64,000 bases of DNA from Prevotella sp. Lineage in GTDB: Bacteria; Bacteroidota; Bacteroidia; Bacteroidales; Bacteroidaceae. Positions 1,046 through 18,704 of the stretch are shown here, piece by piece. The stretch lies in assembly GCA_017412705.1 (NCBI GenBank), contig JAFPWS010000059.1, positions 1 to 64,000 of the forward strand, read 5' to 3'. Each line of letters opens with the position of its first letter. Positions within the stretch are counted from its first letter, which is position 1. The position numbers and the translations under genes are program-made. A model generated the notes under the pieces. That model was not told the origin of the DNA. It saw nothing but the letters and a program-made list of their open reading frames with translations, and searched no databases.

Positions 1046-2389
1046 GTGAAAACTGAGATAAAGTCAAAGAGAGTACGGGCTGTCGTAGACGAGCTGAAAG
1101 ACCAGTACATGGAGGCAGACAAAAATTGCCGTCCGTGGATTATTGGTTTCTCGGGCGGCAAAGACTCAACGGTACTCTTAATGCTCACTTGGATTGCAAT
1201 GCAGGAGCTGCGTGACGAAGGCATAGAGTTGCGTCGTCGCGTCTATGTTGTTTGCAATGATACGATGGTGGAGAATCCTGTCATCGAGGAATATGTTACT
1301 ACGGTTTTGTTCGAGATAGGCAAGGCGGCTCAGGAACAGCACCTTCCTGTGCAGGTGATGACAACCACCCCACAACTGGAAGATACGTTCTGGAGTTGCG
1401 TCATTGGCAAGGGCTACCCTGTGCCCAACAATGCCTTCCGCTTCTGCACAGAGAAGATGAAGATTAAGCCCACCTCGAAGTTCATCACAGATCAGGTGGT
1501 GGCAGATGGCGAAGCCATTGTCCTGGTGGGTACACGTCTAACGGAAAGCCAGCAGCGTGAACGCTCTATCAAGCGACATGAGATTAAGGGCCATCGCCTT
1601 TCGAAGCACCCTCTAAATCCCAATACTTTCACTTATGCCCCCATCAAGGAGCTGATGCTTGAAGAGGTTTGGTGGGTCATTAATGCTATCCCTTCACCTT
1701 GGGGCTTCGACAACGAAATCTTGTATAAGATTTATCTGGATGCTTCTGCTGACGACTACGAATGTCCAACTGTGGTAACAGACGATAGTCATCGCTCCTG
1801 CGGACAGAGCCGCTTTGGCTGCTGGATTTGTACTGTGGTGAAGGAAGACAAATCTATGTCATCACTGATTCAGAATGGCGTGTCATGGATGCAGCCTCTC
1901 TTGGACTTCCGCAACAAGCTGGTAGAGAACAGAAACGTTTCAGAACTACGCTGTTCTACTCGCCGTAATGGACAAGCTGCCGTTGACAGCACAGGTCACA
2001 ACCTTGGTAACTACACGATGGAATATCGCATAGAAATGCTGAGAGACCTGTTGAAAGTGCAGAAGAAAGTTCAGGAGGAGCATTCGAGTGTACGTCTGAT
2101 TACAAGCCAGGAACTGATTGCTATTCAGGTTATCTGGTTCCGTGATGGCAATTTCTCAACAACAGTAAACGACATCTATAACGAGATATACGGCTACAGC
2201 ATCCCCAATTTGGAGATAGGTTTGCAGGAAAGACTCATACTGGAGCGTTCTTGCAAAGACCCAAGCCACTTCCAATTGATTCAAGAACTGCTGGCCCTGC
2301 AAAAGAGCAAGGTTCTGCTGATGAGAAAGTATGGCTTGCAGAATGATTTGGATGAGCAGCTTGACCGCTATGTAAAGAAAGGAGGTTAA
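1046..2389 (+). CDS. dndC: DndC-type DNA phosphorothioation protein (PAPS-reductase-like)
   Basis: This 447-aa protein belongs to the DndC family, which activates the DNA backbone and transfers sulfur during phosphorothioate modification. The PP-loop ATP pyrophosphatase motif SGGKDS is at residues 36-41. Four cysteines near residues 239, 252, 260 and 263 (CPT...SCGQSRFGCWIC) form the expected iron-sulfur cluster site. The start is a GTG, and no better ATG lies upstream in frame. It is the first gene of the operon, and dndD begins two bases after its stop. There is no dndA next to it; in known Dnd systems a housekeeping IscS cysteine desulfurase can supply the sulfur. dndB, the usual repressor, is also absent. 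Confidence 0.93.
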   Translation: MKTEIKSKRVRAVVDELKDQYMEADKNCRPWIIGFSGGKDSTVLLMLTWIAMQELRDEGIELRRRVYVVCNDTMVENPVIEEYVTTVLFEIGKAAQEQHLPVQVMTTTPQLEDTFWSCVIGKGYPVPNNAFRFCTEKMKIKPTSKFITDQVVADGEAIVLVGTRLTESQQRERSIKRHEIKGHRLSKHPLNPNTFTYAPIKELMLEEVWWVINAIPSPWGFDNEILYKIYLDASADDYECPTVVTDDSHRSCGQSRFGCWICTVVKEDKSMSSLIQNGVSWMQPLLDFRNKLVENRNVSELRCSTRRNGQAAVDSTGHNLGNYTMEYRIEMLRDLLKVQKKVQEEHSSVRLITSQELIAIQVIWFRDGNFSTTVNDIYNEIYGYSIPNLEIGLQERLILERSCKDPSHFQLIQELLALQKSKVLLMRKYGLQNDLDEQLDRYVKKGG

Positions 2390-2391
2390 GC

Positions 2392-4494
2392 ATGCTGATT
2401 AATAAAATCATCCTGAATAACTATCGCCTTTACGAAGGAGAAAACACTATAAGTTTCAACTTCGACGAAAGCAGGAACATATATCTGGTATGTGGTGAGA
2501 ATGGCTTTGGTAAAACCACATTCCTCCATTCTTTGCTTTGGTGCCTGTATGGACGTTTCGTTGGCGACATTCCAGTTTCAGGGCAAGACGCAGGCAACTA
2601 TACTGCTACTCTGAAAGGCAATTTGAACCTGAGTGCCGCCAGGCGTTATGAAGAGCTGGCTACTCCTGATGCCATAGCAGCCATCAAGAAAAGCGGCTAC
2701 ACAGGATATGAAGAGATACAGAAAGACAGTATTTGTAGTGTCACCATCTGTTTCACAGAAGTAGGCATCCCTTCAATCCCTTGCCGCAATATTTCTGTAA
2801 AACGCAGCTATGATGCGCTACTCCAGAAAGAAGATGTTGAGATTCTGATAGACGGTAATCGCAATGAGTTGACAGATGAGATTGGGCCAGATGTATTCAT
2901 CAATGACTTCATCCTGAATAAAGATATTGCCAGTCTTTTCTTCTTTGATTCAGAGGAAATCGTATCGCTGGCAGAAACCAGCACTATTGCAGAACGTCGC
3001 AAGCTGAGTCAGGCATACGAAGAGGTGCTTGGTATCAGAAAATACGTAGAACTGAAAACCAACCTTGAAAGCCTGAGATTGCGCTATCGCAAGAAGTCGA
3101 AAGATTTGAGTCTCAGAGACAAGCTTGAGTCGCTGGAAGCAGAAAGAGATGCGAAACGCCAAGAAGCCCAGAATTTGGAATCTACCATTGAGCAGATGCA
3201 AGGATCTATGGATGCTTTGCGTGAGGAAAACGAACAACTTCAAACCAAGTTGTCTCGCGAAGGCAGTAGCGTGAAGACAGAAGAACTGCAAAGAGTAAAG
3301 GCAGTGATAGAGCATTGTAAACAGGAAGATACCAGAATGAAGAATGCCATCAAGCAGTTTATCGACTATGCTCCATTTGCTGTTGCCGGCAATGTGTTCA
3401 CCCAAGCCTACCAACTTGCAAAGACAGATCACAACACCACTGCCATTAACAATGCAGCGGTGGCTCAGAATAGTGTGCTTGATGCACTCAGTAGCGATAT
3501 GCTTCAGCTTCTAACCTCTATGCCTTTGAAGCAGAAAGAAACAGAAGAGGCCCAAAAGAAACTGGAAAACATCATCGCAAAATATCGTGGTGGCACCTCA
3601 AACAGAGAGATTCGCCTGAATATCTCTGACGAGGACTTTGCAGAAATCGAAGCCGTTTACAATAGCCTGACAACAACTTACAAGTTGGAATTCTCAACCC
3701 TTGCTGAGGCATATCGCAAAAACAGGATTACTCTGGAACGTAATGCCAGACGTTTGGCAAACATTCAGAGTAAGGAAAGCGATGAGGTTGTAAAGGCTCT
3801 TCGCGATAAGAAAAACGAAATCGAGCAGAAGATTAAAGATACAGATGAGCAACTTCGCCAGAACCATGTTAAGACTGGTGAGTTGAAACTGACATTGGAT
3901 TCTTTGAATAAGCAGATCAAGGAACTGAGTCGTAAGGTTAGTGTCGATGATGCTGACGAAGAGAAAGACAAAGTTGCCAGCGAGCTTATTGGCGAACTTG
4001 ATACCTTCTTGTTCTCATTGAAGGAAACCAAAAAGTCATCATTGGAACTGAGAATAAGAAATGCCCTCAACACATTGATGCACAAGGAAGATTTCATTGG
4101 ACGTGTAGAGGTTGAGTTGGAAGATGACTCAATGGATATAAAGCTATACTCACCAGACGGATTTGAGATTGACAAATCTCTTCTGTCTAAGGGAGAAAAG
4201 CAGCTGTACGCCACATCTATACTAAAGGCATTGGTGGATGAAAGTGGTATTCAATTCCCAGTATTCATTGATAGTCCTTTGCAAAAGTTCGACAAGAGCC
4301 ATGCCTCGAAGATAATCATAGAGTTTTATCCTTCTATTTCCAAGCAGGTCATCCTGTTCCCATTGCTTCACAAAGAGCTGACGGCTACAGAATATGATAT
4401 GCTGAAACCCTATGTTGAGAATGCCGTTGTCATTTCTAACGACACAGTGCGTTCTACATTCAAGAAGGTGAACACAGACAAACTAATGAATTGA
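2392..4494 (+). CDS. dndD: DndD-type SMC-like ATPase of DNA phosphorothioation
   Basis: This 700-aa protein has ABC/SMC ATPase architecture. The Walker A motif GENGFGKT is at about residues 35-42. A long charged coiled coil spans about 215-540. The signature LSKGEKQ is near 600, and the Walker B strand FPVFIDSPL is near 625. DndD proteins provide the ATPase activity of the DndCDE complex, probably nicking or remodelling DNA before sulfur insertion. The ribosome site AAAGGAGG lies in the last codons of dndC, so the two genes are translationally coupled. The length is typical for the family and all ATPase motifs are intact. Confidence 0.92.
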   Translation: MLINKIILNNYRLYEGENTISFNFDESRNIYLVCGENGFGKTTFLHSLLWCLYGRFVGDIPVSGQDAGNYTATLKGNLNLSAARRYEELATPDAIAAIKKSGYTGYEEIQKDSICSVTICFTEVGIPSIPCRNISVKRSYDALLQKEDVEILIDGNRNELTDEIGPDVFINDFILNKDIASLFFFDSEEIVSLAETSTIAERRKLSQAYEEVLGIRKYVELKTNLESLRLRYRKKSKDLSLRDKLESLEAERDAKRQEAQNLESTIEQMQGSMDALREENEQLQTKLSREGSSVKTEELQRVKAVIEHCKQEDTRMKNAIKQFIDYAPFAVAGNVFTQAYQLAKTDHNTTAINNAAVAQNSVLDALSSDMLQLLTSMPLKQKETEEAQKKLENIIAKYRGGTSNREIRLNISDEDFAEIEAVYNSLTTTYKLEFSTLAEAYRKNRITLERNARRLANIQSKESDEVVKALRDKKNEIEQKIKDTDEQLRQNHVKTGELKLTLDSLNKQIKELSRKVSVDDADEEKDKVASELIGELDTFLFSLKETKKSSLELRIRNALNTLMHKEDFIGRVEVELEDDSMDIKLYSPDGFEIDKSLLSKGEKQLYATSILKALVDESGIQFPVFIDSPLQKFDKSHASKIIIEFYPSISKQVILFPLLHKELTATEYDMLKPYVENAVVISNDTVRSTFKKVNTDKLMN

Positions 4495-4497
4495 CGT

Positions 4498-4899
4498 ATG
4501 AGCATAATGATAGCACAAATAAAGACCAGCTCTGAAAACAAGGAGCGTGTGCAAAGACTGACACGAAAGTTTGGTCTTGGCGCAGAAAACGTGATAGCAC
4601 GTATCGCCATTGCATACTCCCTGAAAAGTGGGCAGCGGTTTTCACCAACAGAAGTGAAGGATGCTGGCGGCAAAGAGTATAGCAGGAGTGTGCTTTTCGG
4701 CAACCTGTATCCGCTATACCTTGCCATGATATGCTCACACTATGGCATCAAAAGTACAGATAAAGATTTGGCCCGCTATTTCAAGATGCACTTGGATGAC
4801 GGGCTGGAGCTGATAGATAAAGACGTAAAAGACAACCCCAATTTGGTGGGATTCGACTATTTATTTGATAAGATAGAAGAAGGATTGAAGGAGTTATGA
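4498..4899 (+). CDS. dndE: DndE-type protein (DUF1832)
   Basis: This is a small 133-aa protein of the DndE family, which binds DNA (nicked DNA in the studied homologue) and is part of the DndCDE modification complex. The N-terminal half (residues about 10-55, LTRKFGLGAENVIARIAIAYSL) has the helical pattern typical of DUF1832, and its position directly after dndD supports the call. It starts three bases after the dndD stop, and its stop overlaps the start of the next gene in an ATGA arrangement, so production of the modification and effector proteins is coupled. Confidence 0.85.
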   Translation: MSIMIAQIKTSSENKERVQRLTRKFGLGAENVIARIAIAYSLKSGQRFSPTEVKDAGGKEYSRSVLFGNLYPLYLAMICSHYGIKSTDKDLARYFKMHLDDGLELIDKDVKDNPNLVGFDYLFDKIEEGLKEL

Positions 4900-7673
4900 G
4901 TGTTGACCTCTTTAGGCGGATGGATTATGCCGATGTGTTCGACTTTGACAAGTTCCACGAGGCGTTTAAGCAACAGTTAGCTGCTGCCAGAGGAGGTGAA
5001 CGCTTTACGCTACAGTCATATATCGAGGAGCACCATGAATTATGGCGTGATTATGATGTGGCAAAAACTGCTCAAATAGCAGAGACATTGGAAACAGAGG
5101 TCTCTGATATCTACGGCATTTTCCCTGATCCTGAAGATTATATAACTCTACCTACACCACAATGGCCAGAAAGAACGAAAAGAAGAGAGTCTTCCATTAG
5201 GGACTTGGCAAAAGAGTATCTGGAGAACAAACCAGCTCCCCAAGACTTGAACTATATTTTGGGTTATGTCAATGACCACAGGGAGAAGAAAACAAATCGA
5301 AATAGTCTTCGAACTTCTTTGGGGCAACTTAAGGATGTCTTTGTTCATTTCCAAGACATAGACAGATGGGGACTGTGTAGCATAGACTATACAAAGCAAC
5401 GTGTTCAAGACGAAGAGTCCACTTATGAAGAAATCGAAGATGAAGGTGTCTGGTGTGTAAGAGAAGATGAGCCTGAATATAATATTGAAAGGACCAACTT
5501 GTCGAGCCAAAGTTTCGAACTGCGTTATTCTACACGTCGTGAACATAAGCCAACAGACTTTTTCACTAAAGCATTGTCAAACAGCTCTCGACTGGATTTA
5601 GGACTTGGCTATTTCAGCAGTGCATGTTTTAATGTACTAGCTTGTGGCTTTGCCCATTTCGTTAAGAATGGGGGCAATATGCGACTCTATATCAATCCCA
5701 ACGTCACAGAAGAAGATTATTATCTGTTACGAGGTTATGATCAAAAGGAGTTCGAAAAACACATGATAAGCACCTATGAGAGATTGCTAAAGATTTTCTC
5801 ACGTAGGGATGAATTGTTCTTTAGATGTCTGTCATACCTGATAAGCCGCCATCGTATTGAAGTGAAAATGGTTTTGCTGAAAGAAGATGGTATCGCACAT
5901 GAAAAGTTTGGCATTTTTACTGATACAGAAGGTAACGAGGTCGCTTTTAATGGCTCAATGAATCTTACAGCGTCAGGTCTTACAAAAAACATAGAATCTA
6001 TTGACTCCATCTGCTCATGGCGTTCTGAAGATGACAGAGACAGAATTAAGTGCTACCATGACGATTTCAATAGCATCTGGGAAAGTAGAAATCCTGACGT
6101 AATGGTCTTTCCTGCTGATGAATTCTGTCAGCGTATCGTAACAGAGTACCCACCAGCTGTTGCTGTTGACGATCTGGTTAAACTGGAGAAAGAAGTATTA
6201 AAAGAACTGGAAACGGAGCACGTTGTTTCAAATCAGGATGAACCACATTTCCCGTCTAAATTCAAAGATGGCCCACGTCCGTACCAAATAGACGCATACC
6301 AAGCGTGGGTGAAGAATGGAAAACAAGGTGTGTTTGCAATGGCAACGGGTACAGGTAAAACCATTACATCGCTGAATTGTGCATTGGAAGAATATCTTGA
6401 CGATGGATTCTATCGTCTTTTAATATTGGTACCCTCGCTTGCATTGGTAGAACAATGGGGTGACGAAGTGCATAACTTTAATTATAGGAATGTCATTAAG
6501 GTCTCTTCAGAGAATGCCTCATGGAAACAGGAATTGGCAAAGATGACCATGAAAATAGGTCTTGGGCGTAATGTGAACTACGTCATCATTTCCACGTATC
6601 AATCATTTGTCATGAATGATTTCCAGGTGTTGCTTCCTAAATTATCAAAGGGTGCAATTCTCATAGCAGACGAGGCCCACAATATAGGCTCTTCTTCTGT
6701 AAGGAATGCATTCCACAGGCTAAGTATTACGAGACGAATAGCGCTTTCAGCTACGCCAAATCGCATATATGATGAAGAAGGTACAAGGGAAATAGAGGGT
6801 TTCTTTAACGACACCCATCCTTACACCTATAGCTTCTCCATGCGTAGGGCTATTCAGGAAGAGAGGCTGATGCCATATTATTACTTCCCATATCCTGTAA
6901 AGCTCGAAGATGAAGAAATGGTGGATTATGCCAGAATCACACGCCAGTTGATTCAGCTCTACAACGACAGGGGTAGCTTCTCAGACCCAGAGCGGGCAAG
7001 AAGGTTATTACTGTTAAGAAAGAATATCCTCCACAAAGCAAGAAATAAGATGGTCGTTTTTCGCAATATTATAAAGGATATTGGAGAGGACAAGTTGAAA
7101 TATTGCTTTGTCTATTCAGCTGCAGGTAAAAGGGCGCATAGTGATGAGACTGACGATGAACAGTTAGATGAATACATTTTGAAAGAGATGCAGAAGGTCC
7201 TGAAAAGTACTTTCCCTAATGTGACATGCAACTCATATACAGGAGAAGACTCCAAGGAAATGCGAAAGCAGAAACTGGCAGCTTTTGCAAATGGCCAGTT
7301 GAATGTACTATTTGCAAAGAACTGTCTTGATGAAGGTGTTGACGTACCACGTGCAGAATATGGCATCTTTACGTCAAGCACAGGAAACCCACGCCAGTTT
7401 ATTCAGAGACGAGGCAGACTTTTGAGAAGACATGAGGATAAACATTTTGCCTTTATCTTTGATATGGTTGTCATACCAGATTTTTACTCACCTCATTATG
7501 AAAGAAGATTTTGGGGATTGGAGAAGAAACTTGTTGAGAATGAAATGCGGCGAGTTGCTAATTTTGGCAGTCTTGCTAGCAACTACTATACAGGTGCTCT
7601 AAGCACATTGGAAGAAATCGTCTCGTTCTATGAAATAGACCTTGACGGAATGGTACTTAATGAAGATAATTAA
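4896..7673 (+). CDS. PLD-nuclease/SF2 DEAH-box helicase fusion, putative phosphorothioation effector
   Basis: This 925-aa protein joins a phospholipase D-type domain to a superfamily 2 helicase. The PLD half is at about residues 205-400 and carries an HxK...GSxN signature near 336-355 (AHEKFGIF, then FNGSMNLTASG). The helicase half has Walker A ATGTGKT near 485, DEAH near 592, SAT near 615 and the motif VI-like RRGRLLRR near 837. Similar proteins act as DNA translocases or nucleases in defence systems. Canonical Dnd restriction uses DndFGH, with DndH as the helicase; this protein is shorter and differently built. The four-base overlap with dndE suggests it acts on or with the modified DNA. 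I infer that it is the restriction or replication-blocking component. Confidence 0.85.
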   Translation: MSVDLFRRMDYADVFDFDKFHEAFKQQLAAARGGERFTLQSYIEEHHELWRDYDVAKTAQIAETLETEVSDIYGIFPDPEDYITLPTPQWPERTKRRESSIRDLAKEYLENKPAPQDLNYILGYVNDHREKKTNRNSLRTSLGQLKDVFVHFQDIDRWGLCSIDYTKQRVQDEESTYEEIEDEGVWCVREDEPEYNIERTNLSSQSFELRYSTRREHKPTDFFTKALSNSSRLDLGLGYFSSACFNVLACGFAHFVKNGGNMRLYINPNVTEEDYYLLRGYDQKEFEKHMISTYERLLKIFSRRDELFFRCLSYLISRHRIEVKMVLLKEDGIAHEKFGIFTDTEGNEVAFNGSMNLTASGLTKNIESIDSICSWRSEDDRDRIKCYHDDFNSIWESRNPDVMVFPADEFCQRIVTEYPPAVAVDDLVKLEKEVLKELETEHVVSNQDEPHFPSKFKDGPRPYQIDAYQAWVKNGKQGVFAMATGTGKTITSLNCALEEYLDDGFYRLLILVPSLALVEQWGDEVHNFNYRNVIKVSSENASWKQELAKMTMKIGLGRNVNYVIISTYQSFVMNDFQVLLPKLSKGAILIADEAHNIGSSSVRNAFHRLSITRRIALSATPNRIYDEEGTREIEGFFNDTHPYTYSFSMRRAIQEERLMPYYYFPYPVKLEDEEMVDYARITRQLIQLYNDRGSFSDPERARRLLLLRKNILHKARNKMVVFRNIIKDIGEDKLKYCFVYSAAGKRAHSDETDDEQLDEYILKEMQKVLKSTFPNVTCNSYTGEDSKEMRKQKLAAFANGQLNVLFAKNCLDEGVDVPRAEYGIFTSSTGNPRQFIQRRGRLLRRHEDKHFAFIFDMVVIPDFYSPHYERRFWGLEKKLVENEMRRVANFGSLASNYYTGALSTLEEIVSFYEIDLDGMVLNEDN

Positions 7674-7686
7674 AAACCCTAGCAAT

Positions 7687-7899
7687 ATGGAAGCAGAGCA
7701 GATATTCAAAGAGTTAATGAAGTCAGAAGAGTTGCAAACTCATTTTGGCATTAGTAAGGAAGAGTTGGCTGATGCGTCTTATGTTGGCGACTCTAACAAC
7801 ACTACTATAGAGATTGTTAAAGACGTTATCAAGGGGATTGCCAACAGAAAATCCCCCAATGTGGTCTTTCAAGGTATATTGAAAAAAGTTTCTGACTAA
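7687..7899 (+). CDS. Small conserved-looking protein between helicase and SMC ATPase, 70 aa
   Basis: This short, acidic, largely helical protein matches no family I recognise. An upstream in-frame ATG at 7642 would give 85 aa but would lie inside the helicase gene. The ATG at 7687, 13 bases after the helicase stop, gives MEAEQIFKEL and avoids the overlap, so it was chosen. The gene stops 15 bases before the SMC-like gene. Its position as a tiny gene between two large ATPases suggests an adaptor or inhibitor subunit, which is inference only. Confidence 0.7.
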   Translation: MEAEQIFKELMKSEELQTHFGISKEELADASYVGDSNNTTIEIVKDVIKGIANRKSPNVVFQGILKKVSD

Positions 7900-7914
7900 T
7901 AATTCTGTAGGTAT

Positions 7915-10053
7915 ATGGGTACATTTATCAAATCAATTAGTTTCCAAAACTTCTATAATTATTATGGGAGTTACGCGGACAACACCTATACCTTCAAGGA
8001 GGGTATAAATATCATCAATGCAGATAACAATATGGGAAAGTCGAAATTTTATAATGGCTTCCTATGGATATTGGATGATGAAGTTTATGATTCAGATGAT
8101 AAGAGAATCTACCCAGTTTCAGACTCCACCTATGTCAAGATGATGTCAAAAAAGGCTAGTCGTGAAAACGTGGAGTTGGACATGGGCGTTACCATTGTTT
8201 ACGAATCTGAAGGTATTAGGTATAAGGTAACTAAAGAGGTGCATTGTAAACAGGAAGACGGCGGCTGGCTCTTCGCACCTTCAACAAAGGTCTTAAAAAC
8301 ATCCAATAACGAGGATATGCCCGTAATGGATAAGCAAGAACAGCAAGAAGCCATAAGAGTGCTTATACCTGCTGATATGGAAAAATATGCTCTGCTTCAG
8401 GGGGAGTCAATGGAACGACTTGTTGATCTTTCTACTCTTAATGGTTTGGAGAATACGATCAACGCCTTAGCCGACATGAATAACCTTATAAGGATGTGTG
8501 GTCTTGCTGCAGATCTAGTAAAACTGGCCAAGCAAGAGTACAACAAAGAAGAAACAAAGAACAGAGGAGCAAGCAATGAGATTCTTAAACTTCGAGAAGA
8601 GCGTGACAATCTTGAAAAATGGATAGAAGATGCAAATGGCAAAATAGACCTTGCCCGCCAAGAATTGCTTAAAGCTAAAGAGAAGGAACAGCAATTCGAA
8701 TCAGACTTTTTTTCAAGCAAGAAGCGTGTTCAATTAAGAAAAGAATATGATGACGAACGTGATAAACTAGAATCCTTAAGGAGGGAGAAAGCCGAGCAAG
8801 AACTGTCTATCACAAGTAGACTTTTTGACGAAAACTGTCCTTGGATTCTGATGGGACTAGGGAATGAAACAAGTGATTTTGACACAAAGCGAATTGAACT
8901 GACAAAGATGATTGCGGCAAAAGAGATTTCTCAAAATCCACAAATACTTCTGCCAGACGATTCACCTGACGCTCCTTCCCTGAGAAGAATGCTGGAACAT
9001 GAACATTGTGAGGTATGTGATAGAGAAGCAAAAAAAGGAACCGCCCCATGGCTTCATATCAAGCAAGTGCTTGAAAGACCACATAAGGAAATGCGTACCT
9101 CTGCATCATTCATGCAGTTCTATAGTGGTATACAGAATACTACTGGTAGATATGAGGCAACAATTCCTCAAATCCAAGAAAGTTTTGAACAGTATATGAA
9201 TAACATCTATGATTTGGATGAGCAGATAGAGGCTCAGGAAAGAATTGTAGAGGCCAAAGAAAATGAACTCACATTGGTTGGTTCAGAAAACAGCACAGAG
9301 GAGGAAGACCGCAAAATCTTGTCAGGCTATAATCAGGCAAAACAGACCATTACCAACAAAAATGATGAAATTCAAAGATGGACTGGAAAGATAAAAATCT
9401 GGGATAGTGCTTTGTCAAAGGCGAAAGATGAACTGGATAAGAGACAGGGCTCTACACCTATCAGAAAGGCGAAGGAGTTGTATGACAACATGCAGGTCAT
9501 AAAGACGATGTTTGACTTAACTAAGGAACGTATTTTCCAAAATATCGTTGACAATCTTCAGACAGAAGCCAATAAGATGTACTCCACCTTAACTAAGGGA
9601 AATCAGACAGTTGGTGGCACATTAACCTTCAACAGGCAGGACAATGGTACTGTTCGTGTTTCTGTGATAGATTCTCAAGGAGAGGAACTGTTTGGTAATG
9701 GTACAGGATTCCAGAGAATGAAGCAATTGGCCATTGTCATGTCTATTATTTCATCCAAGGTTGGAAACAAGAGTTTCGATTATCCGTTTATTTCAGATGC
9801 GCCTTTCTCAGAATTCAATAAAAACTTCATAAATAATTTCTTTGAGATAGCACCAAATGTATTCCACCAAAGCATCATTATGATAAAAGAATTCTATGAC
9901 TCTGCAGATAGAAACTTAATTAGCGAACATGGAAAAGCCATTGTGAAGCAGATGAATGATGGTCAGCTCCAGGGTACCTTTTATGTTAATTATGCAGAAA
10001 CACCGGCTGATGCAGGAAATCTTGTGACGAAGAAATATTGTTATACTAAATAA
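7915..10053 (+). CDS. SMC/Rad50-like ATPase with CxxC hook, putative effector ATPase
   Basis: This 712-aa protein has an SMC/Rad50 layout: an N-terminal nucleotide-binding half, a coiled coil, a central CEVC motif (C365, C368) resembling a zinc hook, a second coiled coil and a C-terminal half. The Walker A is unusual: the loop reads NADNNMGKSKF at residues 35-45 and lacks the first glycine of GxxGxGKS/T. A signature-like GNGTGFQRMKQL lies near 594 and the Walker B FISDAPF near 625. It is distinct from DndD in sequence. In DndF-type and related systems an ATPase partners the helicase, so a similar role is likely here. It starts 15 bases after the 70-aa gene. Confidence 0.82.
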   Translation: MGTFIKSISFQNFYNYYGSYADNTYTFKEGINIINADNNMGKSKFYNGFLWILDDEVYDSDDKRIYPVSDSTYVKMMSKKASRENVELDMGVTIVYESEGIRYKVTKEVHCKQEDGGWLFAPSTKVLKTSNNEDMPVMDKQEQQEAIRVLIPADMEKYALLQGESMERLVDLSTLNGLENTINALADMNNLIRMCGLAADLVKLAKQEYNKEETKNRGASNEILKLREERDNLEKWIEDANGKIDLARQELLKAKEKEQQFESDFFSSKKRVQLRKEYDDERDKLESLRREKAEQELSITSRLFDENCPWILMGLGNETSDFDTKRIELTKMIAAKEISQNPQILLPDDSPDAPSLRRMLEHEHCEVCDREAKKGTAPWLHIKQVLERPHKEMRTSASFMQFYSGIQNTTGRYEATIPQIQESFEQYMNNIYDLDEQIEAQERIVEAKENELTLVGSENSTEEEDRKILSGYNQAKQTITNKNDEIQRWTGKIKIWDSALSKAKDELDKRQGSTPIRKAKELYDNMQVIKTMFDLTKERIFQNIVDNLQTEANKMYSTLTKGNQTVGGTLTFNRQDNGTVRVSVIDSQGEELFGNGTGFQRMKQLAIVMSIISSKVGNKSFDYPFISDAPFSEFNKNFINNFFEIAPNVFHQSIIMIKEFYDSADRNLISEHGKAIVKQMNDGQLQGTFYVNYAETPADAGNLVTKKYCYTK

Positions 10054-10064
10054 AGAACCGCTTT

Positions 10065-10562
10065 ATGAACAGTTCAACGTTTAGAGAAAAAGTTTTGGAT
10101 TTGCGTCCACAATATAGTGATCGGTATCGTTCTATGATTGATGCCATTTCCAATAAGTTGGAAAAGACAGGTAAAGGTAATGTTGCCCAGTTTGGTGCCT
10201 ACTATCAGACATATATGTATGCTTGCATTATCGGCCTACGCCTGGGTAAACCTAAATACCTGGAGGCAAATGAAAAGTCGTGGGAATTCGCTTTGATGAA
10301 CAAGTGGAAGCCAACTCAGATACGTGATTATGTCATTATGATGCTTTTCAATCGCTCCAAGGATTATGGCTACGATTGGATGGATTTAGAGGATGCAAGC
10401 GATGAAACGATAACTGCATTCCTGCGTACTTTTGAACGCGAAATGGAAGGCTATGCTAATAGAGGCTTAGAGTATATAAACAATTTGTGGGTGAACCAGC
10501 GAGTTAGATTTGAGTCGCCAACGATTTTTGTAGAAATCCTACAAGAACTTGATAATGCATAA
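10065..10562 (+). CDS. Unrecognised helical protein, 165 aa
   Basis: This soluble, mostly helical protein has no recognised domain. Residues about 40-62 (VAQFGAYYQTYMYACIIGLR) are hydrophobic but do not look like a true membrane segment, and they faintly recall the DndE core. It begins 11 bases after the SMC-like gene, so it is probably the fourth subunit of the effector set. A relationship to DndE would be a plausible hypothesis to test; at this level it is only an impression from the helix pattern. Confidence 0.75.
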   Translation: MNSSTFREKVLDLRPQYSDRYRSMIDAISNKLEKTGKGNVAQFGAYYQTYMYACIIGLRLGKPKYLEANEKSWEFALMNKWKPTQIRDYVIMMLFNRSKDYGYDWMDLEDASDETITAFLRTFEREMEGYANRGLEYINNLWVNQRVRFESPTIFVEILQELDNA

Positions 10563-10580
10563 ACTTCCTTATTAAGGTAA

Positions 10581-11870
10581 ATGGCAAAGTCTGAATATCT
10601 TGAAACACTTGAAAAGCTACAGAATGCTTTGACACAATTTGACATGTCGTTTGGCGTGTCAAATAGGATTTTTCGTCTAGCATTAGTTTCTGAGATTTTA
10701 GACACAGCTTGTTTGTTTGAGCAACTCTATGATAGTTGGAGTGAACACTTACCTTATGGTGAAGGGCCTGATGCTGACGTTGATTTCGCATACTGGAAAG
10801 AATTGAGTACCTGGGAGACGCTTCTTAATAGTGCCAAACAGAATGCATGTATTGATGACTTCCCCTTTGACATGGGTAACGGAGTAACATCAGATAGAAT
10901 ACATGGTAATCGAAGAAAATCTTATCTTAAGACGATCAATGGCGTTCTTCGACACTCCAAATACGCTGGTAAAGAGCCTACGTCTGCTTTTGTCAAAACT
11001 ATCAATAGTGATAAAACTCACATGATAACTTTTGGCAACATGGTGTTTGATGCCTTGTCTTCATTATTACTAGTCTTTAGCAAAATAGAGACCCTCTTAT
11101 CTAATCCTCCCCAAGAGCTATTTCTTAATTTCTATGAGATGCAGTATAATCGCTTCTGTGAGGAATGGTTTTCTTATAGGACACGCATAATTGAGATTTT
11201 AAACGAGGATATTTCTAACAAGAGAAGATGTAATAAGTTCTTTGCGCTGAAGGATGAAGTTTGGAAGAGTCTCTATGAATCGAGTTTCCTTGACGCATTG
11301 AAAGACGGCATCAATATATACGACATCCATGATTACGAGAAAGAGCATCCAGAATCTAGTAAAACTGAGGATGAAATCCGTGAAGTGTTAGCATTAGCAG
11401 AGTTGGTTGATAGTGAAAACAGACCATATAAAGAAAAGGTAGGTAAGTATATTTTCGAGCATCGCAAGTCTTTATCGTATGCGGACATCAGTACATTCTT
11501 CGTTTATCTCGATGCAGTACCAGACATCCTCAGTAACATTGAGAAGTTGAAAGAAGGAAATTGTGATGAGACAGCAGCTCCCCAGCCAGTAGCAAGTGAT
11601 AGCACATCTGAGGTGGGACAGGTTAATCCTGTTGTCGATGCTATTAAGGAACTGACTGGTGTTGTGAAAGAATCGTTGAAAACTCCCAAGCAACAGTTTA
11701 CCGTCTATCCTCAGGATGGCAGTACGGCTAACTTGGGGTGCCAGATGCAGAGTCCGCAATTTCAGGTGATACCTTCTTCGACGGAGCAACAGCCGAAATT
11801 GGAAAGCCGCTCGGCGACACAAGGAGACGCTTGCCAGAGCAAGAATAAAAAGGGCGATGAGAACGTTTGA
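10581..11870 (+). CDS. Unrecognised protein with disordered C-terminal tail, 429 aa
   Basis: No known family was recognised. The N-terminal 330 residues look globular and helical. The last 100 are proline-, glutamine- and serine-rich and look disordered. Near residues 380-400 the tail holds ANLGCQMQSPQFQVIP, which resembles ANIGCSMENVTFQTLV near the N terminus of the protein encoded at 13015. A shared motif in two genes of one operon suggests a common binding partner. The codons are rich in A and T compared with the flanking genes. The gene starts 18 bases after its neighbour behind an AAGG ribosome site. Confidence 0.7.
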   Translation: MAKSEYLETLEKLQNALTQFDMSFGVSNRIFRLALVSEILDTACLFEQLYDSWSEHLPYGEGPDADVDFAYWKELSTWETLLNSAKQNACIDDFPFDMGNGVTSDRIHGNRRKSYLKTINGVLRHSKYAGKEPTSAFVKTINSDKTHMITFGNMVFDALSSLLLVFSKIETLLSNPPQELFLNFYEMQYNRFCEEWFSYRTRIIEILNEDISNKRRCNKFFALKDEVWKSLYESSFLDALKDGINIYDIHDYEKEHPESSKTEDEIREVLALAELVDSENRPYKEKVGKYIFEHRKSLSYADISTFFVYLDAVPDILSNIEKLKEGNCDETAAPQPVASDSTSEVGQVNPVVDAIKELTGVVKESLKTPKQQFTVYPQDGSTANLGCQMQSPQFQVIPSSTEQQPKLESRSATQGDACQSKNKKGDENV

Positions 11871-11885
11871 TTAATTAGGTAGATT

Positions 11886-13037
11886 ATGGAAGAAAAGAAT
11901 AAAGATATAGTGGCTGGAGGTCAGCAGGAAACAATGCTGTATCAGGATGCATGCCAGATTATTGAGCAGGCACAGAAGTTGGCTTATCGTCAAGTCAACG
12001 AGACGCTGATAAAGCGCAATTGGCTCTTGGGTTTGCGTATCAATATGGATGTGCTGAAAACACAACGTGCGGAATATGGCGAACAGATTGTTAAGACCTT
12101 GGCAAGATCATTAACATTAAGGTATGGTGAAGGCTTCACTAAGACCAATCTTTACAATTATATAGGCTTTTACCAGAAGTGGCCAGAGATTTTCCACGCA
12201 GTGAGTGGAAAATCTATTGACCTCGATAACATTTTCCACGCAGTGAGTGGAAAATCTGAAAACATTCTGCAATCAGTGATTGCAAAATCTCCTATTCGTT
12301 TATCTTGGACGCACTATCGCATCATTCTGCAAGAAAACAACAAGGAGGCTCGCGACTGGTACGAGCAGGAGGCGGCTCGCGAAATGTGGGGTACGCGTAC
12401 ACTACAGCGCAATGTGAGTAGCCAGTACTATCATCGATTGCTTCAGTCGCAGAACAAGGATGCCGTAAGAGGAGAAATGAAGCAGCTGACGGCTCCACTA
12501 CAGGACAAACTGGAGTATATCAAGAACCCTGTGGTAGCAGAGTTCCTGGGATTCAAGAACAGGACTGACTATACGGAGAGTGAACTGGAACAGACCATCA
12601 TAGACCACCTGATACCATTTCTGATGGAGTTGGGAAAGGGCTTTGCACTGGTTGACCGGCAGAAGCGCATCCATACCGAGAAGGACGACTACTACATAGA
12701 CATGGTGTTTTATAACTATAATTTGCGTAGTTTCGTTTTGATCGACTTGAAGACAACTAAGCTGTGCCATCAGGATGTGGGCCAGATGGATATGTACGTG
12801 AGGATGTACGATGAGATGATGTGTCCGCAGGGGCACAATCCAACTATCGGGCTGATACTATGTGCTGACACCGATGACGATGTGGCTCACTACTCTGTGC
12901 TGAATGGTAGCGACCAGTTGTTTGCCGCCAAGTATCTGACCTATATGCCATCAAGAACTGATCTGCGCCGCGAGATAGAACAGCAGAAGGAGTTCTTCCT
13001 GTTGCAACATAAAAATGGGAAAGACGATGAACGATAA
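11886..13037 (+). CDS. DUF1016/YhcG-family PD-(D/E)XK nuclease
   Basis: This 383-aa protein has the DUF1016 N-terminal domain (residues about 15-180, including the RNWLLGLRI and YNYIGFYQKW blocks) and a PD-(D/E)XK nuclease-like C-terminal domain (about 210-370). The catalytic strand pair YYIDMVFYN ... FVLIDLK is at about 275-292. The final motif is DLK rather than ELK. Members of this family often sit in defence islands and restriction loci. Residues about 101-135 contain three related copies of an xxxAVSGKS/xxxSVIAKS repeat, encoded by DNA palindromes (see 12188-12288). It follows the 429-aa gene by 15 bases and overlaps the next gene. Confidence 0.85.
   Translation: MEEKNKDIVAGGQQETMLYQDACQIIEQAQKLAYRQVNETLIKRNWLLGLRINMDVLKTQRAEYGEQIVKTLARSLTLRYGEGFTKTNLYNYIGFYQKWPEIFHAVSGKSIDLDNIFHAVSGKSENILQSVIAKSPIRLSWTHYRIILQENNKEARDWYEQEAAREMWGTRTLQRNVSSQYYHRLLQSQNKDAVRGEMKQLTAPLQDKLEYIKNPVVAEFLGFKNRTDYTESELEQTIIDHLIPFLMELGKGFALVDRQKRIHTEKDDYYIDMVFYNYNLRSFVLIDLKTTKLCHQDVGQMDMYVRMYDEMMCPQGHNPTIGLILCADTDDDVAHYSVLNGSDQLFAAKYLTYMPSRTDLRREIEQQKEFFLLQHKNGKDDER
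12188..12288. repeat. Three tandem hairpin-forming repeats inside the DUF1016 gene
   Basis: Copy 1 (12188-12214) has perfect 10-bp arms GATTTTCCAC/GTGGAAAATC around a 7-base loop. Copy 2 (12231-12255) has the same stem with 9-bp arms. Copy 3 (12264-12288) has different bases, TGCAATC/GATTGCA, yet pairs perfectly. The arms of copy 3 differ from the others by changes on both sides that keep the pairing, and all three stay in frame. Confidence 0.85.
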
Positions 13038-13695
13038 GGAGAAACAGGCACAGGCTCCCATCAATGTGTGGGGCATAGCGAATATAGGCTGCTCGATGGA
13101 AAACGTTACGTTCCAGACGCTGGTGGCGGCTCCTGAAGAGACGAAGACGGAGGAAGCAGAAGCGGTGGAAGAGGTGACGGAAGTTACAGAGGAATGTGAC
13201 GAGTTGCTGGTCAACGATGTTTTCTCTGACGAATTGTTTACGACTAATCAGCAGTTGTTGCAGTTGCGAACAATCATCAATGAATCCGTTGGCATGGGTG
13301 ACCAAGAAAAGATAGACCTGAGCAAAGGCTTGGAGTGGTTTTGGTTGTATCAGGCCATTTACGATGCCGGATTGTTTGAAACACGCAGCAATCGCGAAAA
13401 TGTCGCGACGGTTGTTGGCTTTGTGCGCCAGATAGCCAAATGGCTCTCTGGTATCATCAACATAGATGACGAAGAACGTATTCGAAACATCTGTAAAAGT
13501 GTTTCTGCCGAGCAAGGTAAATGGATGATGAACGGCAAACCCGTGAACCTTGTAGATATCGAGGCTAACAAACGACGCATGACGGTAATGAAGCCCACGA
13601 AAATTGAACGTATTGTTAGGGTTGCCTATCACGGGCTATACACAAAGCTTGTTGCCCTGAAGCAGGATATAATGAAGGAGAAGGTTACACGATAG
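13015..13695 (+). CDS. Unrecognised protein, 226 aa, last gene of the dnd operon
   Basis: No family was recognised. The N terminus (residues about 18-40, ANIGCSMENVTFQTLV) resembles a motif in the tail of the 429-aa protein. A very acidic linker (about 42-65) follows. The C-terminal 150 residues look helical and basic, ending in a lysine-rich stretch. Two starts are possible: ATG 13015 overlaps the nuclease gene by 23 bases and ATG 13027 by 11. Either way it is coupled to the nuclease. A strong hairpin at 13724-13766 ends the transcript. Confidence 0.7.
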   Translation: MGKTMNDKEKQAQAPINVWGIANIGCSMENVTFQTLVAAPEETKTEEAEAVEEVTEVTEECDELLVNDVFSDELFTTNQQLLQLRTIINESVGMGDQEKIDLSKGLEWFWLYQAIYDAGLFETRSNRENVATVVGFVRQIAKWLSGIINIDDEERIRNICKSVSAEQGKWMMNGKPVNLVDIEANKRRMTVMKPTKIERIVRVAYHGLYTKLVALKQDIMKEKVTR

Positions 13696-13723: not shown

Positions 13724-13766
13724 AAAACGCGCCAAGATCAGTTCAAGGTCTGGGTGCGTTTTTTTA
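13724..13766. terminator. Rho-independent terminator, probably bidirectional
   Basis: AAAACGCGCC-A-AGATC pairs with GGTCT-G-GGTGCGTTTT, giving a stem of about 15 pairs with one mismatch and a six-base loop, followed by T7 on the plus strand. On the minus strand the A-run gives T4, so it could also end the small gene at 13764-13871. Confidence 0.85.
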
Positions 13767-15484: not shown

Positions 15485-16024
15485 ATGACACTTGAATATC
15501 AACAATTATTGGAAGATATGGAAGAGATTAAGAAGCAGGAGAATGAGGTGCAAGGCACCTCTTCTCCACGTAGGAAGCTGGTGGAGAGCTATAAGTCGAA
15601 TACACGTCGCTACGATGATGGGTCGATAGAGATAGCTCCGCAAGAGAAAGGTGAACCGAGTCAGAAGGATGTGAAGAAAGTGGGTCGCTCTAAGCGATAT
15701 GCCACTACCGGCAAGAATCCCCTGACTTGTATTGAGCTGAAGTGTCCTGACAACGTACCTGACAAAGCTGCCTTCTTCCACAAGGAGTTGGCTAAGTTGA
15801 CTAAGGACATGGAGATTGAGGAGCCGCAGTTGCCTGAGGGGGAGTTCCTGTTGGATGAACCCTGCGTAAAGGTTCGCTTTGCGGCAAAGGAGCACAAGGT
15901 TGTGGCCTGGCTCACATTCGAGGCTAAAGGATTGATAGACGTAAGGAGAGAGCTGTACAATCTAACAAGCAAGATTGACAAATGTTTTGTAATCAACAGC
16001 GATTCGATTTGCCCACAGCCATAG
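15485..16024 (+). CDS. Hypothetical protein, 179 aa, upstream of and overlapping the primase gene
   Basis: The N terminus is charged and probably coiled. The C-terminal half (residues about 75-175) alternates strands and helices and ends in FVINSDSICPQP. Its last 43 bases overlap the start of the primase gene in another frame, which points to translational coupling. No known domain was recognised. Confidence 0.6.
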   Translation: MTLEYQQLLEDMEEIKKQENEVQGTSSPRRKLVESYKSNTRRYDDGSIEIAPQEKGEPSQKDVKKVGRSKRYATTGKNPLTCIELKCPDNVPDKAAFFHKELAKLTKDMEIEEPQLPEGEFLLDEPCVKVRFAAKEHKVVAWLTFEAKGLIDVRRELYNLTSKIDKCFVINSDSICPQP

Positions 16025-18612
16025 TGACCGCTGCAATCTTCAATAGTTTGGTGGACAGTGCCCAGACCAAGTGGCTTACGACTCAACACCGTAAGCTGAG
16101 GGAGGCACTGCCCTCCATTCTTGAGGGGAATGCGGAGTTGCTGGCTCAGTGGACCGGTGACGAGAATTTTCAGAAGTTCTGCCAAGCTCAGGAGGCGAGC
16201 AAGAAGCGTGTGGCTGGAGGTAAGACCAAGGGTGAGGTGTTTAAGGCTCTCACCATCGAGAAGAAGCTCCAGACCTACTGCGACTCGCTGAAGAAGTCGT
16301 TGCCGTTTGTGATTTTCATTGCTACCTATATCGAGACCGTTTCTGCAAGCGGTAAGTTGGGTTGCTGGAGAAAGCAGGCGGCTTGTAGGCTGAACGGATT
16401 GTGTGTGATAGACTTCGACCACATCAATGGCGATGTCAGGGAGGTATGGGCTGAAGCCTACTCGCTGCTTAGCGACGAGGACAAGGCCCGTGTGCTACTG
16501 GTTTACGTCACACCGTCGGGACATGGACTGAAGGTCATTTTCATTGCCGACCCGCAATACAATCTGATAGACAATCAGAAGGTTTTTGCGGAGAAGCTGG
16601 GAGGTGAGAAGTTCGGTCTGACGCCAGACTCCGTTTGCCGCGACGCTTCGAGAGGTGCCTTTTTGACTTCGCGTGAGGACATTTTATTGATTAACGAAGA
16701 AAAACTGTTTACGTATGAGAACAAGGATTTTGGCGAGAAATATAACTCGCAGTATCGTGCTGGTAAGTCTCAGCCTACTCTTGACTTTGCTCCGAGTGGT
16801 GCTGATACTCGTAGTGTATCCACCCTTCAAGCTGCTGGAGAAAACCAACAGGCTGTATCAGGAGTCGATGGAGGAGACCTGCGGAATGCTGAGTCTATGA
16901 TGTATAATGGCGTCAGTTACGCCAAAATCATCGAGGCTTGGATGGAGGGCAGGAACCTCACTAACCATCGGCATGATACGTTGGTAGAACTGACGGATCA
17001 TTTGAGGTACTTGATAGGTAAGAACCCTACCAAGATTACCGAGGTGGTGATGACGTTGCCCTGGGTGCAAGACCTTGCTGCCGAGGGTGAGGATGTGGCT
17101 GGTACAGTCAGTTCGATTATGGGCTGGCGGTATAAGCAGAAGAAGCCGGAGGAGGTTTTGGAGGCGTTGAGGAAAGCGGGAGCAGAGTCGCAAGACGCTT
17201 CTCTAAACTCTCAACCCTCAACTCTCAACTCTCAGAACGACAACGACGTTTACGCCGTGCTGCCCTTGGAGGCTTGGGCTGAGGAACTGCTGGAGATGGC
17301 AGAGTACTACCCCTGCTTGAAGGAGCTGTTCCTGAATGTGCATCCCCACAAGTTGCCTGCGGTGTGGTTCTCTTCGGCGGCGTTGTTCGGAACGTTGATG
17401 ACAAGGGCTTTTTATCATTTTTGGTATGAGCCAGAGTTGGTGCGCCGACTGAACTACTGCATCTTCATTATTGGTGACCCGGGTGCCGGCAAGAACGTCA
17501 TCGAGAAGTTCTACAAGAAGATTGCCGACCCGATGATTCAGGCTGATCAATGTCTGATTGATGCGGTGAACCGCTACAAGGAGGGCAGAACGGAACGTAC
17601 CACTTCGACGAAGGCCCAGAAGGGCGAGGCGCTGAAGAAGCCTGTGGTGGGTATCAGAGTGCATCCTGCAAGAACAGCTACGGGTGAGTTTATCCGCCAC
17701 ATGCTGGCAGCTGTGGAGACAATACAGGACAAGCCTCTGAATCTGCACATGTTTTCGTTTGATGCTGAGCTGGATAACGTCACTAAGCAGAACAAGGGTG
17801 GCGACTGGAAGGACCGAGAAATCCTCGAGCTGAAAGCTTTCCACAACGAGGAGGACGGACAGATGTATGCCAATCAGGAGTCTGTTACGGGTATGTTCAA
17901 TGTATTCTGGAACTTCATCTACACGGGTACGCCGTATGCCCTGCACCGCAAGGTGAACCAAAGGAATTTCGGTACGGGTATGAGTACCCGACTTGCCGTT
18001 ATCCCACTGCCTGATAAGGGTATGGCGAAGCGACACCAGCAGGTAGATCCGTCAGCCAACGAGACGCTGCAGACGTGGGCTTACCGACTGGACAAGGTTG
18101 AGGGTGAGCTGCCTATTGAGCCGCTGAACGACGAGACCTACGAGTGGCAAACCAGTCACTTGGAGATTGCCGAGTTTAACGACGACAAGGCAGACAGAAC
18201 GCTGTTGAAGCGTATTCCGTACTACGGCATTGGCATCTCCCTTCCCTTCATCCTGATGCGTCATTGGGATGAGTGGCAGGAGAAGAAGACGCTGACGATG
18301 GATGAACGCGACAAGAGGCTCTGTAGGTTGGCTATGGAGATTCAGTACAAGTGCCAGCAGTTCTACTTCGGCGAGATGGCCTACAACTACTTTGCTGACC
18401 AGAACAAAGAGTTCGTACAGCGTCGCCGCACCACCCGCTATGATGACTGTTTCCGCAAACTGCCTGACGAGTTCAAGACGCAGCAGTTCATGGACATCTT
18501 CAACTGTTCGAAGACGGCAGCATCGAGAGCCATCATCCGCTTTCAGGATGAAAAGGTGGTGGAGAAGGTGAAGTACGGATTGTATCGGAAGGTGGTACAG
18601 GAACTGCCTTAA
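15982..18612 (+). CDS. BT4734-like/DUF3987 primase-ATPase
   Basis: This 876-aa protein has a two-part architecture found in Bacteroidota mobile cassettes. A BT4734/VirE-type N-terminal domain (residues about 90-290) has the primase-like block LCVIDFDHI near 140 and VTPSGHGLKVIF near 175. A DUF3987-type ATPase domain follows, with Walker A GDPGAGKN near 500. Such proteins are thought to initiate or support replication of the element; that role is from family knowledge, not shown here. Residues about 407-418 (SLNSQPSTLNSQ) are encoded by a repeat otherwise typical of intergenic DNA, placed exactly at the linker between the two domains. Confidence 0.85.
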   Translation: MFCNQQRFDLPTAIVTAAIFNSLVDSAQTKWLTTQHRKLREALPSILEGNAELLAQWTGDENFQKFCQAQEASKKRVAGGKTKGEVFKALTIEKKLQTYCDSLKKSLPFVIFIATYIETVSASGKLGCWRKQAACRLNGLCVIDFDHINGDVREVWAEAYSLLSDEDKARVLLVYVTPSGHGLKVIFIADPQYNLIDNQKVFAEKLGGEKFGLTPDSVCRDASRGAFLTSREDILLINEEKLFTYENKDFGEKYNSQYRAGKSQPTLDFAPSGADTRSVSTLQAAGENQQAVSGVDGGDLRNAESMMYNGVSYAKIIEAWMEGRNLTNHRHDTLVELTDHLRYLIGKNPTKITEVVMTLPWVQDLAAEGEDVAGTVSSIMGWRYKQKKPEEVLEALRKAGAESQDASLNSQPSTLNSQNDNDVYAVLPLEAWAEELLEMAEYYPCLKELFLNVHPHKLPAVWFSSAALFGTLMTRAFYHFWYEPELVRRLNYCIFIIGDPGAGKNVIEKFYKKIADPMIQADQCLIDAVNRYKEGRTERTTSTKAQKGEALKKPVVGIRVHPARTATGEFIRHMLAAVETIQDKPLNLHMFSFDAELDNVTKQNKGGDWKDREILELKAFHNEEDGQMYANQESVTGMFNVFWNFIYTGTPYALHRKVNQRNFGTGMSTRLAVIPLPDKGMAKRHQQVDPSANETLQTWAYRLDKVEGELPIEPLNDETYEWQTSHLEIAEFNDDKADRTLLKRIPYYGIGISLPFILMRHWDEWQEKKTLTMDERDKRLCRLAMEIQYKCQQFYFGEMAYNYFADQNKEFVQRRRTTRYDDCFRKLPDEFKTQQFMDIFNCSKTAASRAIIRFQDEKVVEKVKYGLYRKVVQELP
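17201..17235 (+). repeat. Intergenic-type AACTCTC repeat inside the primase coding sequence
   Basis: Degenerate tandem units of about 7-8 bases (AACTCTC, AACCCTC, AACTCTC, AACTCTC) run in frame through the interdomain linker and encode SLNSQPSTLNSQ. The composition differs sharply from the surrounding coding sequence. Confidence 0.75.
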
Positions 18613-18669: not shown

Positions 18670-18704
18670 TTTCCCACTTTCCCACTTTCCCACTTTTGAC
18701 ATTT
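18670..18704. repeat. Right arm of the perfect 35-bp inverted repeat
   Basis: This is the exact reverse complement of 95-129. It lies between the primase gene and the P5-like gene, so the P5-like gene falls just outside the bracketed 18.6 kb. Confidence 0.75.

Follow-up and report, generated by a model that had tools for sequence, protein, structure and literature searches.

Does a run of ten closely packed genes that opens with the phosphorothioation genes dndC, dndD and dndE encode one system or more than one? We address this question for a Prevotella sp. contig (JAFPWS010000059.1 of GenBank assembly GCA_017412705.1; source genome 3.4 Mb, 86% complete), of which positions 1 to 64,000 were analysed; this stretch of 64,000 nucleotides is referred to as the window, and all window features given below lie on its plus strand. 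An earlier sequence-only reading had described an unbroken ten-gene operon with overlaps and short gaps, and ten same-strand open reading frames (ORFs) do span 1046–13695 with an intergene spacing of -23 to +18 bp. It had further taken the ten genes for a single antiviral system of a type other than PbeABCD, which is not what we found. Two units stand head to tail, the first at 1046–10562 (genes 1–7), almost certainly a bacterial DndCDE-PbeABCD system of a kind already described, and the second a separate three-gene cassette at 10581–13695 (genes 8–10). The first protein of the cassette (TAIL) ends and the last one (HEAD) begins with a related short motif, here called a tag, and a YhcG nuclease is encoded between them. 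Our overall reading is a known Dnd-Pbe unit followed by a sensor-effector cassette built on the tagged pair, for which we see an even balance of probability.

Results

The ten-gene run divides into two units

Relatives of PbeA (E 1e-60) were found in 13 of 200 Prevotella genomes including the window's own, at 14 places, and eight of the 13 other places were read. None of these eight has a match to genes 8–10 (phmmer, E 1e-3). The closest relative, locus L085, carries the same seven genes with 79% DNA identity across 1055–10549, and downstream of its Pbe genes stand unrelated genes, one of them Fic-like. Elsewhere genes 8–10 have relatives that stand behind other cargo with no dnd genes, and it is this, together with the lack of matches in all eight Pbe loci read, that makes the three genes a cassette separate from Dnd-Pbe. 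A single ten-gene system was rejected on the basis of L085 and of the independent cassette loci.

dndCDE lies in front of the Pbe genes in three of the eight loci (L085, L087, L089) and not in the other five within the stretch taken. In these five (L086, L088, L090, L091, L092) the dnd-free Pbe-type genes follow genes for proteins of ~1,050–1,100 amino acids (aa) and ~367–381 aa, with further genes between in L091; the two proteins have a common C-terminus, CxNCFI, and are perhaps another modification module. Behind DndCDE-PbeABCD in L085 (L085:1-8585) we noted genes for a 448-aa protein with a weak MzaB match, the Fic-like protein of 459 aa, a protein of 1307 aa and a fragment that weakly matches TIR.

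Genes 1–7 match DndCDE-PbeABCD

The three dnd genes are all present and contiguous, and profile matches bear out the identities proposed earlier. dndC (1046–2389), the sulfurtransferase gene, scores 459 bits in PADLOC and 404.7 bits against TIGR03183 (cut-off 290.4), and its product has the PP-loop SGGKDS and the C..C cysteines. dndD (2392–4494) encodes an ABC ATPase with 248.6 bits against TIGR03185 (cut-off 245.85); its top PADLOC model bears the name PbeC (383 bits), and the DndD model reaches 277. dndE (4498–4899) matches Pfam DndE with 95.6 bits (cut-off 25), while its TIGR03184 score of 64.3 is under the cut-off of 71.85.

Genes 4–7 follow the published order pbeA, small gene, pbeC, pbeD, and it is here that the proposed new type fails. 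pbeA (4896–7673) encodes a PLD/HKD nuclease with an SF2 helicase; residues 211–912 align to 722 of 722 positions of the PADLOC PbeA model (770 bits), and PLDc_2 (27.8 bits, cut-off 27) and ResIII (83.4 bits) are recognised. The N-terminus is extended by ~210 aa, and the full length including the extension is 77% identical in the genome (G128) that holds L085. The extension (4896–5525) matches no Pfam family, and among the PbeA relatives matched only that of L085 covers it. Gene 5 (7660–7899, 79 aa), for which the ATG at 7660 is preferred over the TTG at 7642, is called pbeB-like from its position and size and from a 70-aa homologue at the same place in L085 (2e-27); no PbeB model match was obtained for it in Pfam, PADLOC or NCBIfam, nor for the PbeB-position proteins of three other loci. 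pbeC (7915–10053) encodes an ABC ATPase that matches PADLOC PbeC over aa 5–658 (85 bits), and its cysteines form CxxC (CEVC), not the CxC after which the clade is named in the literature. pbeD (10065–10562) aligns by hhalign over 152 columns with the proteins at the PbeD position in seven other Pbe loci (E 3.8e-12, probability 97.6); three of these proteins were scanned and likewise lack a PADLOC PbeD match. hhalign gave no link of gene 7 to DndE; PbeD is stated to be DndE-related by Rakesh et al. 2024 (PMC10853773).

In agreement with the sequence-only reading, the ten proteins have no entry for DndF, DndG or DndH among the matches listed from Pfam, PADLOC and NCBIfam (in PADLOC the best 25 each for genes 2, 4 and 9, in NCBIfam the best 25 for gene 4). 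A helicase/ABC-ATPase layer and a DUF1016 nuclease stand alongside the phosphorothioation genes as a non-DndFGH effector. The operon lacks dndA and dndB, as had also been noted, and DndB has no match in the window's own genome at its 86% completeness. This genome encodes two full-length Aminotran_5 proteins, the class that includes cysteine desulfurases. Following Xiong et al. 2019 (PMC6459918), DndCDE would put sulfur on self DNA and PbeABCD would act against invading DNA without sulfur marks. The sulfur presumably comes from a housekeeping desulfurase.

TAIL and HEAD of the cassette share a tag

The TAIL gene (10581–11870) encodes 429 aa with no family above cut-off, an orphan body followed by a C-terminal tag. 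It is followed by a YhcG/DUF1016 nuclease gene of the PD-(D/E)XK type (11886–13037; Pfam YhcG_C 164.9 and DUF1016_N 118.8 bits, PADLOC PDC-S02), the product of which has the D...DLK motif. The HEAD gene (13015–13695, likely start ATG 13027) encodes 226 aa, an N-terminal tag and a body of type a, again with no family above cut-off; homologous bodies with other N-termini occur in L009, L048, L010, L050 and L051. A common motif, ANLGCQMQSPQF and ANIGCSMENVTF, lies within the final ~40 residues of TAIL and the initial ~40 of HEAD, with an alignment score of 53. The tags themselves are VYPQDGSTANLGCQMQSPQFQVIP at 11697–11777, which recurs on unrelated bodies, and INVWGIANIGCSMENVTFQTLV at 13060–13125. 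Of the other same-strand neighbours scanned in the window, the best pair reaches 33. Among 263 adjacent pairs from 20 evenly spaced stretches of another genome the mean was 21.8 and the maximum 37, and for 175 pairs two genes apart the mean was 22.5 and the 99th percentile 39.6, with a top score of 210 from repeated sequence.

Tags and bodies are modular. Across Prevotella we distinguish nine or ten motif types. The window's type, tag A, is found on several TAIL bodies and on five HEAD bodies, namely a (the window), b (L011, L029, L030, L032, L035, L053), c (L012, L013, L015, L045), d (L031) and e (L014). Body a in turn carries five assignable tags and one unassigned, and body e six. The HEAD bodies of the window and L009 are 91% identical and have unrelated tags, each resembling the tag of its own TAIL. 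At the DNA level L029 matches the window over 11694–13176, that is tag, YhcG and tag (83%), and not in the bodies, and L009 matches from 13150 onward, in the HEAD body (87%) and outside the tag; these breaks of homology at the tag/body borders within the cassette indicate an exchange of bodies around the tags. At the protein level tag A is under constraint, the median ratio of nonsynonymous to synonymous substitution rates (dN/dS) being 0.23 in TAIL (40 of 55 pairs computable) and 0.20 in HEAD (47 of 66 computable), with third codon positions 45% alike. In 13 chosen pairs the residues G/N/Q/S/T make up 38% of tags versus 23% of bodies, and charged residues 20% versus 29%.

The elements of the cassette are unevenly distributed. 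The tag A profile was found in 11 of 398 Prevotella genomes, or in nine after removal of the two weakest (head-profile matches G416 and G149, E 8e-4 and 2e-3, in neither of which the tag was seen). HEAD body a occurs in 7 of 200 genomes, b in 1 of 201 from the family, c in 7 of 201 with one strong match, and e in 34 of 346; the TAIL body occurs in 1 of 249 Prevotella genomes, namely the window's own.

Most partners carry matching tag types

The discovery loci of type A were retrieved by means of their tag; two other sets, among them that of the search with HEAD body a, were retrieved with queries that contained no tag residues. L050, L051, L053 and L035 have no readable upstream partner and do not enter the pair counts. 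L054 repeats the pair of L045, and L070 that of L068, and both were omitted as copies; in L052 a tag-like stretch lies within one longer protein. A score of at least 38 was reached by 19 of the 22 discovery pairs. For ten pairs, one per type plus one untagged, the own-partner sum was 433 against 248 +/- 25.5 after shuffling of partners (0 of 200,000 shuffles), and with an alternative selection of nine pairs the figure was 1 in 200,000. No such signal comes from the bodies of the first set, for which 14,080 of 20,000 shuffles reach the observed value. Pairing specificity lies between tag types.

The same question was put to new loci under a rule fixed beforehand, with a search by body e alone, without tag residues, and a score threshold of 38. 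It returned 37 places, of which 10 were known, five had no locus sequence and 22 were tested; an upstream ORF (overlaps of up to 150 bp allowed) was present at 17. Eleven of these 17 new pairs scored at least 38, compared with 7.4% of cross-locus pairs, and the own-partner sum was 711 versus 431 +/- 36 (0 of 100,000 shuffles). L119 and L122 nearly duplicate discovery pairs; once they were removed, 9 of 15 still reached the threshold, again with 0 of 100,000 shuffles.

Two further arrangements were observed. In L011 (5326–7578) a 365-aa TAIL with tag D is followed by a 145-aa protein with a head tag D and a tail tag A and then by a 220-aa HEAD with tag A; the middle protein has the appearance of an adaptor that switches between tags. 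Six HEADs are long, untagged single proteins of 368–455 aa with an added N-terminal domain, two of them without an upstream ORF. Two of the six are HIRAN-like below cut-off (E 1e-4 and 0.0085), as is the tagged TAIL of L069 (E 3e-4), and one long HEAD and the L069 TAIL have a common segment of 54 aa (28%). This lends weak to moderate support to the idea that a split tagged pair and a single long protein do the same job.

Cassettes lie behind different kinds of cargo

Of the nine loci with the window's tag, seven bear the label Prevotella, one Prevotellaceae and one Bacteroidales. Upstream of relatives of the HEAD or the tag we found restriction-modification (R-M) genes of Type I (L010) and Type III (L012), an N6/N4-methylase with a ResIII nuclease that resembles Type III (L045), a cytosine-type methylase of Type II accompanied by an HNH gene (L013), genes for HNH and HIT/methyltransferase proteins (L030), GmrSD (L032), HSDR_N with Abi_2 (L011) and, on the opposite strand, SNF2/N6-methylase/ResIII genes (L031). 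With the window counted, R-M, nuclease or Abi genes lie near the pair in 9 of the 11 loci with several kb upstream, and in six (the window, L010, L011, L012, L013 and L030) the defence cargo is contiguous and on the same strand. L009 and L029 are counted as 'none seen', one L009 upstream protein having been scanned (HAD-like) and none of L029, one gene of which clusters with the Fic gene of L010 (c12). Outside this count are L014 and L035, both of which begin at a contig end, L015 (~2 kb upstream, AbiH) and ~3-kb loci with short flanks. The YhcG nuclease occupies the same slot between tagged genes in four loci, with 25–87% identity to that of the window. As a control, 21 query proteins matched none of 20 stretches of 20 kb each, spaced evenly along one genome (E 1e-8), a result that is only indicative, the queries coming from the tagged loci and the window themselves.

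A phage or plasmid origin of the tagged pair was rejected: no matches were found in viral contigs for the tag profile (A3) or the bodies A5, A7 and A13, in plasmids for the window HEAD, or in phages for one body-e HEAD. Kinship of the window TAIL with the TAIL family of L009, L067, L048 and L011 was likewise dropped, hhalign showing no relation. HEAD bodies a and b are perhaps related (hhalign probability 73), and body e has no link to b or c. Searches of solved structures gave no match for HEAD a or YhcG and one for HEAD c (E 0.13), and the matches of TAIL family A9 are mainly coiled coils (nucleoporins, E 5e-4).

Transcript signals and possible element borders

Both units are probably on one transcript. 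A promoter had been placed at 972, and a pattern match there identifies a box of the -7 type, TATCTTTG (972–979), which we take to be the Bacteroidota-type -7 box; this part of the claim stands, and the TTTG expected with it was not found 17–23 bases 5' of the box. The terminator placed at 13724 is well founded: the intrinsic terminator at 13724–13762 has a fold of -19.7 kcal/mol (z -4.1, 0 of 200 shuffles) and is followed by a T run.

At the 5' side lies a conserved island edge with a SAM-I/IV riboswitch (394–514; Rfam RF01725, 47.2 bits, gathering cut-off 41.1) and a 137-aa ORF (513–926) that is found with 95% identity in L085 and 52% in L013. L013 has the same riboswitch family (59.8 bits) together with this ORF ahead of its methylase cargo, and in L085 no riboswitch above the cut-off was found beside the ORF. 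On the 3' side a BT4734-like_N primase-like gene (15982–18612; Pfam 29.5 bits, cut-off 22.4) belongs to the usual 3' neighbours of tagged pairs, the primase-like cluster c1 being present in 12 of 14 pair loci. Two mutually inverted octamer arrays, AAAGTGGG at 103–131 and TTTCCCAC at 18670–18696, flank the defence cargo, the tagged pair and the primase-like gene and are perhaps the borders of an element.

Discussion

The matched tags suggest how the cassette might work. TAIL and HEAD would be joined or activated by like-with-like contact of the C-terminal with the N-terminal tag, and such tag-mediated pairing is likely. The same motif on both partners argues for homotypic assembly, as for the bacterial amyloid signalling sequences (BASS); assembly of an amyloid type is a possibility that we place slightly below even. 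The variable TAIL bodies (HIRAN-like, coiled-coil or orphan) would then be the likely sensors and the HEAD bodies, small conserved domains, the likely output, with the YhcG nuclease as a likely extra effector between them. HIRAN binds DNA ends, and the HIRAN-like TAILs suggest a DNA-structure signal. The cassette may form a second or last line behind whichever modification-based system sits upstream, a defence role for which the arguments on either side appear about equal. It is tempting, if rather speculative, to extend this to a modification-agnostic second immune tier in Prevotella, in which a DNA sensor and an effector, both exchangeable and joined by interchangeable, mutually exclusive amyloid-like tags (with tag-switching adaptors like that of L011), would stand behind R-M and phosphorothioation systems of many kinds and fire when these fail.

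Several observations weigh against this picture. The window partners are two genes apart and not adjacent, and the background for that spacing reaches 44 besides the repeat. Three discovery pairs stay under 38 (L010, 37; L066, 30; L032, 24), as do L140 (36), L145 (17) and four long HEADs (L127, L139, L141, L143) in the preset test, the split of these misses into long HEADs and others having been made after the fact. Within tag type A own partners are at best weakly favoured (17,590 of 200,000 shuffles, or 9,070 of 200,000 with over-long ORF starts corrected), and the L068 tail scores 39 with another head and 38 with its own. With no homologue of the TAIL body in 248 other genomes its sensor role is guesswork, and the HEADs scanned contain no known toxin or signalling domain. 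Finally, a usual 3' neighbour that is primase-like means that the link to defence could be positional.

This last point leads to an explanation that we regard as rather doubtful, in which TAIL and HEAD belong to a neighbouring mobile or chromosomal element (the BT4734-like primase, small genes, an M15 peptidase) and take part in its replication or regulation, with the tags still pairing the two proteins and the defence genes being adjacent cargo. It would account for the c1 gene in 12 of 14 pair loci with small c4/c6/c7 genes between, for the opposite strand of the L031 defence genes and for those of L032 and L045, which are not contiguous with the pair, but it fits poorly with the R-M, nuclease or Abi genes in nine of 11 loci, six of them contiguous and same-strand, and with YhcG in the same slot in four loci. 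Whichever function is served, the tags might act as docking peptides, with each other or a common third protein as binding partner and no amyloid assembly. The motifs are short, contain prolines and some charge and resemble those of BASS in layout and composition only; the motif types of partners, however, are alike and not complementary, as like-with-like assembly predicts, and we think docking unlikely.

That the tags are DNA recombination handles for the exchange of bodies, with protein similarity as a by-product, would explain why DNA homology breaks at the tag/body junctions in L029 and L009. The low dN/dS values, third positions 45% alike and nine or ten dissimilar motif types, each common to two different genes, make this very improbable. 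Least of all do we expect one ten-gene phosphorothioation effector of a new type: it is suggested by the overlaps and short gaps throughout and the one terminator, but genes 4–7 are PbeABCD, L085 continues after the same seven genes with unrelated ones, and relatives of the cassette sit behind other R-M types. We retain the reading of two units, and the last three genes are not to be counted within the phosphorothioation effector.

If the tagged-pair reading is true, paired-motif signalling, known beside NLRs, serves a second, NLR-free immune-type family in a major gut genus. The nine or ten tag types would be naturally insulated from each other, with the single-polypeptide homologues as a built-in control, and the extra genes trailing R-M and Dnd-Pbe operons would find a concrete answer.

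Comparison with known systems

The Dnd-Pbe part is already known. Xiong et al. 2019 (PMC6459918) describe the gene set in archaea and report 235 further pbeAC cases in bacterial genomes, so that a bacterial DndCDE-PbeABCD is not new. Like the DndCDEA-PbeABCD system described there, the window has dndCDE followed by pbeA (PLD and helicase), a small pbeB, pbeC and pbeD; it differs in the missing dndA, the additional ~210-aa N-terminus of PbeA and the three further genes. The CxC ABC-ATPase/DndE systems of Rakesh et al. 2024 (PMC10853773) have the same core, with CxxC in the window's PbeC. In that paper edge nucleases are proposed as backup suicide effectors, and by analogy YhcG is a plausible nuclease effector in line with this idea; a word search of its main text finds no mention of YhcG or DUF1016, and the parts covered contain no tagged pairs. 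The window's YhcG has both Pfam domains and the D...DLK motif of known YhcG/DUF1016 nucleases, and sits between tagged genes.

The tagged-pair cassette varies a known theme. Among the papers listed in our literature searches, which did not extend to subscription papers or the primary BASS preprint, none describes such pairs in Bacteroidota. The closest parallel of the cassette is BASS1-10, in which, according to two reports (PMC8086366, PMC12261475), similar short motifs occur at the Bell C-terminus and at the N-terminus of the neighbouring NLR in several families. Judged by layout and composition from these descriptions, the two are alike in having a similar motif at the C- and N-termini of neighbouring gene products. 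The partners differ: none of the TAIL and HEAD proteins scanned with Pfam has an NLR domain, and whereas BASS joins a Bell protein to an NLR, the pair described here stands behind R-M or Pbe genes in Prevotella.

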